Assembly: GCA_947453825.1 (NCBI GenBank)
Contig: CANGHN010000006.1
Span: 22,648-86,647, forward strand
DNA from: Betaproteobacteria bacterium
GTDB taxonomy: Bacteria; Pseudomonadota; Gammaproteobacteria; Burkholderiales; Burkholderiaceae
Length of the DNA stretch: 64,000 nucleotides
Direction: 5' to 3'
The translations under genes were made by a program, and so were the position numbers. Of the stretch, positions 4,116 to 8,326 are shown piece by piece; positions within the stretch are counted from its first letter, which is position 1, and each line of letters starts with the position of its first letter. Below the pieces are notes generated by a model that had not been told where the DNA came from, did not search any database, and saw only the letters and a program-made list of their open reading frames with translations.

Positions 4116-4261
4116 GACCGGCTCCTTTTGACCCTTCAAATCATACTATTGCAAGCCCTAAACGCCCGGTTTCCCTGTTATTTCAACCCTCTAGCGTCTT
4201 TTCTCACTCTTAACAGCCCTATTTGCTGATTAGGGTAAATCACTACGAATTAATTACACTT

Positions 4262-4288
4262 CACAACTTCACAACTTGTGACGTTGTG
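4262..4288. promoter_or_regulatory. Cluster of CACAAC/GTTGTG inverted elements (candidate operator)
   Basis: Two direct CACAAC elements (4262 and 4270) are followed by two inverted partners (TTGTG at 4276 and GTTGTG at 4283). The core TCACAA-C-TTGTGA (4269-4281) is a palindrome. The array lies 27-53 bases before the small HTH gene, next to a TATAGT that could serve as a -10 element. This is the expected layout for an autoregulated operator; binding is inferred. Confidence 0.5.
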
Positions 4289-4314
4289 TTATAGTACCAT
4301 TACTGGGAGACGAA

Positions 4315-4494
4315 ATGAAACGACGAATACCGAAAACACATCAAGCCTTGGAGTGGATAGGGAAGGGTATGAGCGCAGCTCAAGCAGCCCGAAAAATGGA
4401 AATTTCAGAGTCCAGTGTGTATGCCGCCCTTAGAAAAGTAAGAGCTAAAGATTTAGGCTGTTGCCCAACCTGTGGTCACAAAATAAGGAACTAG
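4315..4494 (+). CDS. Small helix-turn-helix protein with C-terminal CxxC motif
   Basis: This 59-aa ORF is below the track cutoff. It begins MKRRIPKTHQALEWIGKG, continues with an HTH-like MSAAQAARKMEISESSVYAA (about residues 19-38), and ends in a cysteine-rich tail GCCPTCGHKIRN resembling half a zinc ribbon. The SD GGGAGA lies upstream of the ATG. Its stop is separated by one base from the next ATG (4496), so the two genes are almost certainly translationally coupled. I predict a small DNA-binding regulator, perhaps a dimer bridging a metal through paired CxxC motifs, that binds the inverted repeats upstream. I cannot assign a named family. Confidence 0.6.
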   Translation: MKRRIPKTHQALEWIGKGMSAAQAARKMEISESSVYAALRKVRAKDLGCCPTCGHKIRN

Positions 4495-4495
4495 A

Positions 4496-4795
4496 ATGAA
4501 AAAGACTTTATTGGTAGCAGTATCAATTTCTGTTGCTGCATTTGCATATGCAAATACTGGGCCGTCAGATTCATCGGCGCTAGTCAATCAGCAGTGCAAA
4601 ATTTCTGCAGAGGCTGTAGCTACCTTAAAAGGATTGCGCTACGGTAATACATCCATCAGAAAGGATGTTGCTAGTCTAATTAATGGCCATCTCAAGACAC
4701 AAGAGAACCGTGACCTTGCGCAGAAGGTCTTAAACCTGATGGTTGACGACAAATCCAGCGATGCTAATCAGCTAGAGGGTAAATACTGCTCATAA
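4496..4795 (+). CDS. Small secreted hypothetical protein, coupled to the HTH gene
   Basis: 99 aa with a clear signal peptide (MKKTLLVAVSISVAAFAYA, cleavage before NTG). The mature ~80 residues are helical in character and contain two cysteines (one in NQQCKIS, one second from the C-terminus), which could form a disulfide in the periplasm. No family recognised. It follows the small HTH gene by one base, so it is likely translated from the same mRNA and controlled by the same operator array. A strong terminator hairpin begins inside its last codons. Confidence 0.7.
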   Translation: MKKTLLVAVSISVAAFAYANTGPSDSSALVNQQCKISAEAVATLKGLRYGNTSIRKDVASLINGHLKTQENRDLAQKVLNLMVDDKSSDANQLEGKYCS

Positions 4796-4811
4796 GTTCA
4801 TGAGCAGTATT
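4782..4811. terminator. Bidirectional terminator hairpin
   Basis: A perfect 12-bp stem (AATACTGCTCAT / ATGAGCAGTATT) with the 6-base loop AAGTTC is followed by a T-rich stretch. It overlaps the stop codon of the 99-aa gene and sits 8 bases from the convergent amidohydrolase stop, so it can serve both directions. Confidence 0.75.
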
Positions 4812-4818
4812 CATTTAT

Positions 4819-6087
4819 TTAGTAGCCAAAAGGGGCAACAAAAGGTCGACCAAAGGGTCTGCCGGCTCTGATGGTTTGAACAGGTACCAGGCTATAGTTG
4901 CCAGGCCGCTTATTGCCGCGGGTATCTAACCACTGCACTGGTTTTTCTACTAAGTCCAGGATGGATATATCAGCAGATGCTCCTTTTTTAAGAGTACCAA
5001 GTAAAGGATCGCGATTGATGATTGCGGCGGGCCTGTTGGTGGACATAGCTACCACTTGGTTTAGGCTAAATCCTAATGTGAGGAACTTACTCATGACGTT
5101 AGGTAAGTAGGGGATGCTAGGAGAGTTACCGCTAAATGCGTGTAAGTCACTAGAAATCGTATCTGGTACTAGACCTTGTTGGATTGCAGGTTCTGCAACA
5201 GTGAAATCAAAGCTACCACCGCCGTGACCAACATCAATAATGACACCACGTTTTTTAGCCTCTAATGCCGCAGCAATGAGTTTGCCATTTTGTACGGTGT
5301 TATTACCAGCGCCACTATATGCATGGGTCAATATATCTCCTGGGCGTAGGAGATCCAGAAGATTACTCAGATCACCCGGGGCATTGCCAATATGGCACAT
5401 CACACGTGCACCCTTAACCCCAGAGCGTTCTGCAGCTTCTCTAGCGCGACGCAAAGGCTCAATACCATTCTCACCAACGACATCCAGGGTTTCTCTAACT
5501 TTGATACCTAGAACGATATCGGGATTCTCATTGACTACACGTGCTGCCAAATCAATATTGGCATAGTCAATATTGCGCATTTCACCAACGGGATAGCCAG
5601 CTAGTCCGATTGAAGAAATATGCACGAATGCAAACATCCGACTTCTAGCCTGTGCTTGTATGTAATGTTTAAAGGCAGAGAAGTTATTACCACCAGCATC
5701 ACCAGCGCTGACATAGGTTGTAGTGGCTGTAAATGGTACTAGTTCATCAGCAGGAAGGCCGATAGCAGAAGCTTGTGGGTAGGTGTGAGCATGCAGATCA
5801 ACCAATCCTGGCGTAATGATTTTGCCGCTAGCATTGATTTGCTGTGAGGCTTTATCTTTGGGAAGATCAGCGCGAATATCGACTACACGACCATTGCGGA
5901 TACCAATATCGACGATTGCGTCTAGGTTTTGTGATGGGTCAATCACGCGCGCGCCAGTGACTAGGAGGTCATAGCCGCCAGGTGCTGATAGTCCTTGCTG
6001 CGCAAAACTCATGTCAATACTGCCAATCACGGGCAGAGCGGCTGCGCCTAATGAATACTGCAGTAACTTTCTTCTCTGATGATCCAT
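4819..6087 (-). CDS. Exported amidohydrolase/deacetylase-family metallohydrolase
   Basis: 422 aa. The N-terminus MDHQRRKLLQYSLGAAALP carries a twin-arginine motif (QRRKLL) before a hydrophobic stretch ending near SFAQQG, so Tat export is predicted. The body has amidohydrolase hallmarks: a composite-domain opening (DLLVTGARVIDPSQNLDAIV), the metal motif VDLHAHTYP (about residue 96), VMCHIGNAP and ISSDLHAFSG. It resembles the dihydroorotase-like EF_0837/deacetylase group rather than true dihydroorotase (PyrC). Export and pairing with a secreted alpha/beta hydrolase 23 bases upstream suggest breakdown of an extracytoplasmic amide or cyclic compound. Substrate unknown. Confidence 0.82.
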   Translation of the reverse strand: MDHQRRKLLQYSLGAAALPVIGSIDMSFAQQGLSAPGGYDLLVTGARVIDPSQNLDAIVDIGIRNGRVVDIRADLPKDKASQQINASGKIITPGLVDLHAHTYPQASAIGLPADELVPFTATTTYVSAGDAGGNNFSAFKHYIQAQARSRMFAFVHISSIGLAGYPVGEMRNIDYANIDLAARVVNENPDIVLGIKVRETLDVVGENGIEPLRRAREAAERSGVKGARVMCHIGNAPGDLSNLLDLLRPGDILTHAYSGAGNNTVQNGKLIAAALEAKKRGVIIDVGHGGGSFDFTVAEPAIQQGLVPDTISSDLHAFSGNSPSIPYLPNVMSKFLTLGFSLNQVVAMSTNRPAAIINRDPLLGTLKKGASADISILDLVEKPVQWLDTRGNKRPGNYSLVPVQTIRAGRPFGRPFVAPFGY

Positions 6088-6110
6088 TTACATCCCCTCA
6101 TAGTTTTTTA

Positions 6111-7202
6111 TTATTTAATGGTGCTTAAGAACTTCGCAATTTCTTTATTCTGTACTTCATTCTCATCTTTAGTTGCGCCCGCTCCTGATAGATGACCCAT
6201 TGGGAGTTTATCGTTGATAGCGATATATTTCGCGCCTGGTATGGCCTTTGCAGTATCTTTAGCATCAGATTCAGGGTTGAGTAAATCGCCTGTACCTGCA
6301 AGAATGAGCGTTTTTGCTTTGATCGATTTGAGTGCGGCTGTAGTGTCATTATTAAAGCCCTTTGTCTGGCCAACATCATGGCGATCATAAGCGCGTGATT
6401 GCCAGATCCAATCGTTTGCATCCATTCGTTTCCAGCCACTATCTTGAACTTTTTTGAGGTATTCAATTTCAGCAGCAGGCGTTGGGTATAACTGATTTTG
6501 ATAAGCCGGTGTTCGCACAATGACGCCGCTTAACCATCCTGACCAGAGGCGCATGCCTTGTTCTATAGGCTGGGTATATTTGCCGCCATCATACTTGGGG
6601 TCTGTCATGATGCTTTGACGGAGCATTTCTAGGACGCCAGTAGTCCAGGCAGGCGTTTTAGCAAGTGGAATAATCGGAATAATCGCCTGCATAGCATAGG
6701 GATAAGAGACTCCCCATTGCAAGGCTTGCATACCGCCCATTGATGCACCAATGACGGCAACCAGTTTTTTAATACCAAAGTGATCAACGATCAACTTGTG
6801 TTGAGTATTTACCATATCGCGGATATTAAATTCTGGGAAGCTAATATTAGGCTGTAATTTGCTATTCGAAGGCGAGGTGCTAAGACCATTGCCGATAGCA
6901 TCGGTACAGATTACAAAGTACTTAGTTGTATCGATTGCTTTACCTGGACCAATTAAGTAATCAATGCGGTGATGGTTGCCGCCAATGGCTGTCACCATCA
7001 AAATAGCATTACTTTTATCTGCATTCAGAGTACCTTGGGTTGTATAGGATTGATTGAAGTCTTGAATGACCGAGCCATTTTCTAAAACGACATCTCCCTC
7101 TGGATAAATCTGATGTTGGGGCTCATCGGCTTTATGGGCAAAAGCACAGAATGAGAGGCAAGCTAGACTGAGTGTTAGTCCTTTAACAATGGTGCGATGC
7201 AT
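6111..7202 (-). CDS. Exported MetX-like alpha/beta hydrolase
   Basis: 363 aa with a signal peptide (LTLSLACLSFCAFAHKADEP). The fold is that of homoserine O-acetyltransferase: nucleophile elbow GASMGGMQALQWG (about residue 154), the acid region LILAGTGDLLNPESD and a C-terminal histidine in MGHLSGAG. True MetX enzymes are cytoplasmic methionine-biosynthesis acyltransferases; export makes that role unlikely, and a hydrolase or acyltransferase acting in the periplasm is more plausible. It is the first gene of a two-gene unit with the Tat-type amidohydrolase (23-base gap), so the two probably act on one substrate. Confidence 0.8.
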   Translation of the reverse strand: MHRTIVKGLTLSLACLSFCAFAHKADEPQHQIYPEGDVVLENGSVIQDFNQSYTTQGTLNADKSNAILMVTAIGGNHHRIDYLIGPGKAIDTTKYFVICTDAIGNGLSTSPSNSKLQPNISFPEFNIRDMVNTQHKLIVDHFGIKKLVAVIGASMGGMQALQWGVSYPYAMQAIIPIIPLAKTPAWTTGVLEMLRQSIMTDPKYDGGKYTQPIEQGMRLWSGWLSGVIVRTPAYQNQLYPTPAAEIEYLKKVQDSGWKRMDANDWIWQSRAYDRHDVGQTKGFNNDTTAALKSIKAKTLILAGTGDLLNPESDAKDTAKAIPGAKYIAINDKLPMGHLSGAGATKDENEVQNKEIAKFLSTIK

Positions 7203-7331: not shown

Positions 7332-7673
7332 ATGACAGCAAAGCATATAGACCATGGAACTTCCCATGAATCCTCCTCTTCTGGCGCCGATCAATTAATC
7401 GGAGAGTTCAAGGCTTTAATGGCTGATGCTGAGGCATTGATTAAGGCTACCGAAGATCATCCAGACGGTGCAATTGCATCGATACGTACTAAAGCGCTGG
7501 AAACAATTGCAGGCGCCAAAGAAAGTCTTTCTGGAATTGAAGGCAGACTGGAAGACAAGGCCAAAGAACTTGCCACTGGTGCTGATGACTTTGTTCACCG
7601 TAATCCATGGGAAGCTGTTGGTGTTGCGGCTGGTCTTGGGCTGCTGATTGGCCTTTTTATTCGTCGGCGCTAG
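7332..7673 (+). CDS. DUF883 (YqjD/ElaB-like) membrane-anchored protein
   Basis: 113 aa: an N-terminal polar, alpha-helical part (about residues 15-85, amphipathic and rich in A, E and K) followed by the family hallmark DFVHRNPWEAVGVAAGLGLLIGLFIRRR, one C-terminal membrane helix with a basic end. E. coli YqjD and ElaB are inner-membrane, ribosome-associated stationary-phase proteins. It is followed after six bases by a YqjE-like and then a YqjK-like gene, the same order as the E. coli yqjDEK locus, so this is one operon. Confidence 0.88.
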   Translation: MTAKHIDHGTSHESSSSGADQLIGEFKALMADAEALIKATEDHPDGAIASIRTKALETIAGAKESLSGIEGRLEDKAKELATGADDFVHRNPWEAVGVAAGLGLLIGLFIRRR

Positions 7674-7679
7674 AAAAAA

Positions 7680-8048
7680 ATGTCTCAAGAAAATTTACTT
7701 TCCTTGATTAAGAATCTTGCCTCTACTGGTGCATCGATTGCACAAACACGTCTTGAGCTACTTTCCGTTGACGCACAGATCGCTAGAAGCAAATTTATCA
7801 GCCTTCTAGTGATGATTATTAGCGCCTTATTCTTTTTATTCTTTGGGCTTATCATGCTGGCGCTCTTGATCGTGATCTACAGCTGGGAGACTGACCGGAT
7901 GATGGCTTTGGGTTTACTTACCAGTGCTTTTTTAGTAATTGGCTTGATCCTAGCGTTGTTGATCATGCAGTCCTTGCGTAGTATGCCGAAGTTATTTGAG
8001 GCTTCTATTGCGGAGTTGGCAAAAGATCGTGAAGAGCTGTCCAGATGA
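7680..8048 (+). CDS. yqjE: YqjE-like phage-holin-superfamily membrane protein
   Basis: 122 aa. Two long hydrophobic segments (about residues 38-70, SLLVMIISALFFLFFGLIML, and 80-105) flanked by polar helices match the YqjE/Phage_holin_3_6 family of small inner-membrane proteins. The family is unrelated to lysis in this context; function is poorly known but linked to envelope stress and stationary phase through yqjD. It overlaps the next gene by four bases (ATGA), implying translational coupling. Confidence 0.82.
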   Translation: MSQENLLSLIKNLASTGASIAQTRLELLSVDAQIARSKFISLLVMIISALFFLFFGLIMLALLIVIYSWETDRMMALGLLTSAFLVIGLILALLIMQSLRSMPKLFEASIAELAKDREELSR

Positions 8049-8326
8049 GTATTAAATTAAGCGCTCTAGAGCATCGTAGGCAGTTACTGCAAGCGCAGGC
8101 ACAGTCAGAGCGCAAAGCCTTCAGTGCCCATTTTGAGTCCTGGGAAAAGCCTTTATCTTGGGCTGATAAGGGCGTTGACACTTACCATTTCTTAAAAAGT
8201 AATCCTCTTCTTTGGACTAGCGCATTTGCTGCTCTTGCGCACTACAAGCCAAAGTTGGCTAGTAAGGTACTTGCAGTAGGCTGGGGGCTTATGAAGCTAG
8301 TCAAAAGCGCAAAAAGATTGCTCTAA
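8045..8326 (+). CDS. YqjK-like small protein
   Basis: 93 aa, basic at both ends, with a possible weak membrane helix (NPLLWTSAFAALAHYKP, about residues 52-68). It matches the size and order of yqjK, third gene of the yqjD-yqjE-yqjK locus, and begins inside the stop of yqjE. The assignment rests mainly on synteny. It is convergent with apt (7-base gap). Confidence 0.65.
   Translation: MSIKLSALEHRRQLLQAQAQSERKAFSAHFESWEKPLSWADKGVDTYHFLKSNPLLWTSAFAALAHYKPKLASKVLAVGWGLMKLVKSAKRLL

Follow-up and report, generated by a model that had tools for sequence, protein, structure and literature searches.

Does a very small helix-turn-helix (HTH) reading frame, followed after a single base by a gene for a small exported protein, form a real regulatory unit, and if so, of what kind? 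The question arises in the window, by which we mean the whole 64,000-nucleotide stretch of DNA that was analysed. It belongs to a 1.87-Mb draft genome of the genus Polynucleobacter, which is 88% complete. Polynucleobacter are small-genome bacteria and are common in freshwater. We find that the pair of HTH protein and exported protein is a real, Polynucleobacter-specific and uncharacterised regulatory unit, which belongs to a known general kind, the autoregulated HTH operon, and has an orphan exported product. A literature search for the pair in Polynucleobacter gave no relevant publication among the matches listed.

The paired genes and their distribution

The two genes and their translation signals are:
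4315..4494, plus strand: gene of the HTH protein, with a C-terminal CCPTCGH tail (ORF, conservation, AlphaFold, codon statistics)
4305..4309, plus strand: Shine-Dalgarno GGGAG of the HTH gene (sequence)
4496..4795, plus strand: gene of the 99-aa exported four-helix protein with invariant C34 and C98 (ORF, conservation, AlphaFold)
4485..4490, plus strand: Shine-Dalgarno AAGGAA of the exported gene, lying within the HTH gene (sequence)

The preliminary description had proposed a 59-aa HTH ORF with a CxxC tail. This ORF is present at 4315-4494 and is coding by its codon statistics; the protein begins with MKRRIPKTHQ and ends with GCCPTCGHKIRN, and a conserved CTGGGAGATGAA-ATG is found at its start in many relatives. 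Variability along the ORF is concentrated at third codon positions (0.064/0.041/0.27 by position) and the pN/pS of the gene is 0.145, whereas ratios of 1.7-2.0 are obtained when the two remaining forward frames are read. For the exported gene the pN/pS is 0.083. Both genes are under purifying selection, and the HTH protein is the more conserved partner with 87% mean column identity. The proposed one-base coupling to a secreted protein with two cysteines could also be confirmed, as the HTH gene stops with TAG at 4492-4494 and the ATG of the exported gene is at 4496. This gap is one base long in 56 of 63 distinct units, and translation of the two genes is probably coupled.

Pairing, which the preliminary description had named as a test of the unit, was followed in 200 relatives, 120 of which are Polynucleobacter. 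Among these 120, the exported gene was detected in 75 genomes and the HTH gene in 74, all of them inside the exported-gene set, so that 74 of the 120 Polynucleobacter genomes carry both genes. The 75th genome (G102, locus L098) is the sole case of an exported gene without the HTH gene, and it is a broken remnant: the HTH gene is missing, the exported gene is broken and many neighbours are fragmented. In intact form the two genes are never found apart in the 120 genomes, save in P. necessarius PPGSP2 (G116, L109; LT606947.1), where the exported gene is frameshifted near its start and the HTH gene is intact. With a larger set of 186 Polynucleobacter genomes, the HTH gene was found in 116, and in 97 of the 144 of good quality. 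The unit is thus a dedicated pair of regulator and product, retained in about two thirds of Polynucleobacter genomes. The distances of the HTH and exported proteins track those of the neighbouring yqjD, yqjE and yqjK genes (r 0.5-0.8), in agreement with vertical inheritance at a fixed place. Obligate endosymbionts of Euplotes ciliates are the organisms for which the name P. necessarius was proposed (PMC5018217). The retention of the unit in roughly two thirds of a small-genome genus, together with its breakage in an obligate endosymbiont of ciliates, suggests that its function is needed in open water.

Promoter and operator array

Upstream of the HTH gene, two overlapping features were identified:
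4260..4288, plus strand: operator array, consisting of TTCACAAC twice (4260-4267 and 4268-4275), TTGTGA (4276-4281) and GTTGTG (4283-4288) (sequence, relatives)
4268..4295, plus strand: promoter, with a -35 TTCACA (4268-4273, in the second direct repeat), a 16-bp spacer and an extended -10 TG-n-TATAGT (4290-4295)

A cluster of inverted CACAAC/GTTGTG elements had been noticed here from the sequence of the window, and the array at 4260-4288 proved to be near-invariant in relatives. The TTCACAAC copies are a direct repeat with an 8-bp period and TTGTGA and GTTGTG are inverted half-sites; jointly, repeats and half-sites form a 13-bp inverted repeat at 92%. TTCACA-16-TATAGT is the only promoter-like site of the region, both hexamers agreeing with the consensus at 5 of 6 positions, and the array overlaps this -35/-10 region at fixed spacing. 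When 40 promoters were aligned, TTCACAACTTCACAACTTC and TATAGT were almost invariant and the flanks had diverged. TATAGT is present in 104 of 107 distinct promoters, and the -10 is extended in part of the promoters. Two spacing classes can be distinguished, a short one and one that is 6 bp longer and carries an extra inverted half-site. In both classes TTCACA is found 16 or 18 bp from the -10 among distinct relatives. Rfam gave no match upstream of the unit.

Regulon statistics were obtained by pattern searches. The 16-mer of the array has one exact match in the window, where shuffling leads one to expect 0.02 matches with up to two mismatches. Allowing one mismatch, the array was found solely at the unit across 41 genomes and never in a genome that lacks the unit; a wider regulon for the array was rejected on these grounds. 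Among the 186 genomes, all exact matches listed for genomes with known unit coordinates lie at units, and two-mismatch matches, among those listed, are roughly as frequent as in the reversed control. The operator is dedicated to the unit as a whole array, a statement that does not extend to single half-sites elsewhere. One species (G017, L091) has both genes intact and has lost the array and the -10. The HTH tail of this species reads ECCPTCGYK, compared with the usual GCCPTCGHK.

A duplicate lineage with an altered operator

Second copies of the unit with the recognition-helix substitution S34G are found in four genomes (G083, G048, G566 and G030). A further genome (G022) has one S34G copy, on a short contig, and in G030 the copy at the ancestral site is of the S34G kind as well. 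The S34G copies share a different operator, GTTGTGAA-GTTCAGTACTTCTGTAGTATAGT or a sequence near it. Its core, GTTCAGTACTTCTGTAGTATA, has seven matches in the 186 genomes: five are at S34G units and two at contig ends of G544, which stop just within the shared start ATGAAGCGAC, a position that agrees with a break of the assembly inside a duplicated unit. The operator of the G083 copy is more diverged and gives no match to the core pattern. Going by these sequences, recognition helix and operator covary in the duplicate lineage, a correlation that comes from one duplication lineage and not from several independent events. The unit thereby offers a naturally occurring duplicate whose recognition helix and operator were altered together.

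In the duplicate copies (L239, L240 and L242) the -10, TATAGT or TATATT, is separated from the ATG by just some 8-10 bp. The transcripts of these copies may therefore be leaderless, in contrast to the main copy with its Shine-Dalgarno sequence.

Proposed mechanism

The strict pairing, the near-invariance of the operator, the restriction of the array to the unit, the joint change of S34G and operator and the precedent of ArdK together lead us to read the unit as an autoregulated operon, in which the HTH protein most likely represses its own promoter. We regard this model as a whole as fairly probable. ArdK of plasmid R388, a member of the KorA/TrfB family, is a 102-aa HTH protein that controls five plasmid promoters (PMC9723621). 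It represses promoters where TTGACA is directly repeated at the -35 box, and an inverted repeat can be bound as well. The likeness lies in a small HTH regulator and a direct repeat of a -35-like hexamer, TTGACA for ArdK and TTCACA here. By analogy with ArdK, the 59-aa protein should occupy the TTCACAAC half-sites and shut its own promoter. The two proteins differ in length (102 against 59 aa) and no CxxC tail is reported for ArdK in the parts of PMC9723621 that we draw on. Pfam results for the 59-aa protein, taken up to E 10, contain no KorA/TrfB match. The direct-repeat operator at the -35 is a likeness in operator logic and no proof of kinship.

In the proposed mechanism, the HTH protein would bind the TTCACAAC half-sites, direct and inverted, over the -35 and reaching the -10 of its own promoter, and would most likely repress by standing in the way of RNA polymerase. 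The block would be lifted when the HTH protein senses a change, plausibly at the CCPTCG tail through Zn binding or thiol oxidation. HTH and exported protein would then be made from one transcript by coupled translation, and the exported protein, once cleaved, would adopt a small helical fold in the periplasm, probably with a C34-C98 disulfide, and act there. The unit is a compact model for the way in which a very small HTH protein could read direct and inverted half-sites.

All residues of the CCPTCG motif (C49, C50, P51, T52, C53 and G54) are invariant in 51 HTH sequences, so that conserved cysteine ligands, as expected of a Zn or thiol regulator, are available in C49, C50 and C53. The metal- or redox-sensing role raised in the preliminary description is still speculative. 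That the tail senses metals or thiols is plausible, and we treat Zn or thiol chemistry at CCPTCG as a fair guess, held tentatively and going no further; the tail could also be purely structural. The AlphaFold model of the HTH protein has three helices with a pLDDT of 85. Its fold matches are weak, with a best E of 0.4 and no match below E 0.001 in searches of PDB and viral folds. The ArdK-DNA complex (PDB: 7bca) has the top TM-score among the 50 fold matches listed (TMq 0.65, E 1.4). HTH_7, Sigma70_r4_2 and GerE match the protein under the Pfam cut-off. Resolvase/invertase, sigma region 4 and LuxR domains have the same tri-helical HTH, whereas here it is free-standing, 59 aa long and equipped with a cysteine tail.

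Downstream genes and the extent of the operon

The region downstream of the exported gene contains:
4782..4811, plus strand: terminator-like 12-bp inverted repeat over the stop codon of the exported gene (folding z -5.6 against shuffles)
7332..8326, plus strand: yqjD-like (DUF883), yqjE-like (Phage_holin_3_6) and yqjK-like genes, the ancestral downstream neighbours

In most of the 41 loci, the HTH and exported genes are followed, in this order, by the gene of an Smr-domain protein and by yqjD-like, yqjE-like and yqjK-like genes. The Smr gene starts about 15-80 nt past the exported gene in most relatives, and the Smr-domain protein has a Zn-ribbon-like N-terminal stretch. Since the Smr gene and yqjD-yqjE-yqjK follow the unit in most relatives, the ancestral operon was probably longer than two genes. 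A terminator of 12 bp, as in the preliminary description, does have a stem at 4782-4811 that overlaps the stop codon, but this hairpin was not found in relatives and is specific to the genome of the window, where it faces convergent minus-strand genes. The description of the unit as self-contained thus does not hold for most relatives; given their Smr-yqjDEK context and a hairpin private to the genome of the window, the self-contained form is a derived one.

Two inserted genes (4819-7202, minus strand) part the unit from yqjD in the window. They encode an amidohydrolase and an alpha/beta hydrolase. The second of these genes is also found near the same place in five other genomes (G033, G018, G047, G073 and G034), and the gap between the unit and yqjD therefore looks like an insertion hot spot.

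The HTH protein might instead be part of a longer stress operon of exported protein, Smr, YqjD, YqjE and YqjK, in which it would control ribosome and membrane stress functions and the exported protein would be an accessory. The conserved order in most of the 41 loci with its small gaps fits this, as do the Smr and DUF883 domain assignments. However, the Smr-yqjDEK genes stand without the unit in three genomes (G010, G045 and G021), the Smr gene is absent from the unit locus in G110 as it is in the window, and duplicate copies adjoin a histidine kinase instead. We consider this stress-operon reading rather unlikely. No Smr relative was found in the genome of the window, an 88% complete draft.

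The exported protein and a possible phage origin

The exported protein has the signal peptide MKKTLLVAVSISVAAFAYA and two cysteines, C34 and C98, both invariant in 58 sequences. AlphaFold predicts four helices, with a pLDDT of about 90 across most of the mature part. Searches of solved structures, folds and families gave nothing significant, with no match below E 0.001 in PDB and viral folds. A profile search of 399 genomes of the order, from 158 genera, returned no real homologue outside the genus, its two weak matches spanning the signal-peptide region only. In all searches made, no relatives were found outside Polynucleobacter. A possible link through phrog_25886 amounts to two marginal matches.

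The HTH type of the unit is already known from phages. Small phage HTH-CPxC proteins, from a viral contig (L197) and from locus L232 of genome G336, are alike in length, HTH motif and the C-terminal CPCCG or CPCCN. They differ in having CPxC and not CCPxC, and in the absence of an adjacent exported protein of the unit's family. At 1448-1648 of the viral contig, a 67-aa HTH-CPCCG protein is encoded directly upstream of the terminase small subunit and has the AARKMEISE-VYAAL core of the window protein. No TTCACAAC array was seen in this contig.

Could the unit be a domesticated piece of prophage that the host has put to its own use, i.e. a phage-type HTH with an exported phage protein of a kind serving superinfection exclusion or lysis control? 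Relatives of the HTH with a C-terminal CPCC outside the genus were found in the viral contig and in one other Burkholderiales genome; the nearest HTH-CPxCG relative (46% identity) is the one by the terminase small subunit, and the other lies beside an AlpA-like gene. The best viral fold matches of the exported protein are likewise a phage lipoprotein and a phage exported protein, but with E 0.2 or worse. No phage carries both genes, and a search for phage or plasmid carriers of the pair yielded a single HTH relative in the viral contig. The recurring neighbours in 41 loci are chromosomal genes and phage structural genes were not found beside the unit in them. A present role in defence is further countered by the fixed locus, by the distances that track those of the neighbours and by strong purifying selection. 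We therefore judge a prophage origin of the whole unit unlikely, and note that a phage origin of the HTH protein alone is compatible with the autoregulated operon.

One phage protein, VIP0031 of Salmonella phage Vi II-E1 (phrog_2315; L267 19412-19747, minus strand), was spotted by eye as resembling the exported protein. It is helical, about 110 aa long, and has a signal peptide, two cysteines in the mature part at similar spacing and an R-x-x-x-x-S-I motif. It is not paired with an HTH gene of the unit's kind, and kinship was rejected on profile comparison, which gave no significant similarity (hhalign probability 0.1%).

Repression or activation

The HTH protein could act as an activator, binding the array at the -35 and recruiting RNA polymerase to the extended -10 promoter. 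Overlap of a regulator with the -35 is also compatible with activation, and AraC-type and class II activators use direct repeats at the -35 region. Direct repeats as operators in this position are a typical feature of activators, and part of the promoters have the extended -10. However, with TTCACA and TATAGT each at 5 of 6 consensus positions and at good spacing, the promoter should work unaided, and the inverted half-sites run to the -10, where a bound protein would block. Given two hexamers close to consensus and half-sites that extend to the -10, we favour repression and consider activation distinctly unlikely. It is possible that another regulator binds the promoter of the unit.

Histidine kinases beside the duplicate copies

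A membrane histidine kinase of about 480 aa is encoded directly downstream of four copies (those of G083, G048 and G566 and the G030b copy). One may speculate that the pair forms a new sensory module, in which a cytoplasmic HTH protein with a Zn or thiol tail would control how much is made of a disulfide-bonded protein in the periplasm, and the latter would serve an envelope receptor as partner or ligand; if true, the receptor in the duplicated lineage would be the downstream histidine kinase of G083, G048, G566 and G030. We regard this as a long shot.

Least tenable is that HTH ORF and array are chance features and that the exported gene alone is real: the ORF is short and absent above cut-off from family libraries, but conservation, pairing, operator uniqueness and codon statistics contradict this reading, which is already refuted by the conservation and the codon statistics.

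As a minor observation, at the loci where a duplicate unit adjoins a histidine kinase (L102, L100, L097 and L272), two, L097 and L272, then continue with a second, larger sensor-like gene.
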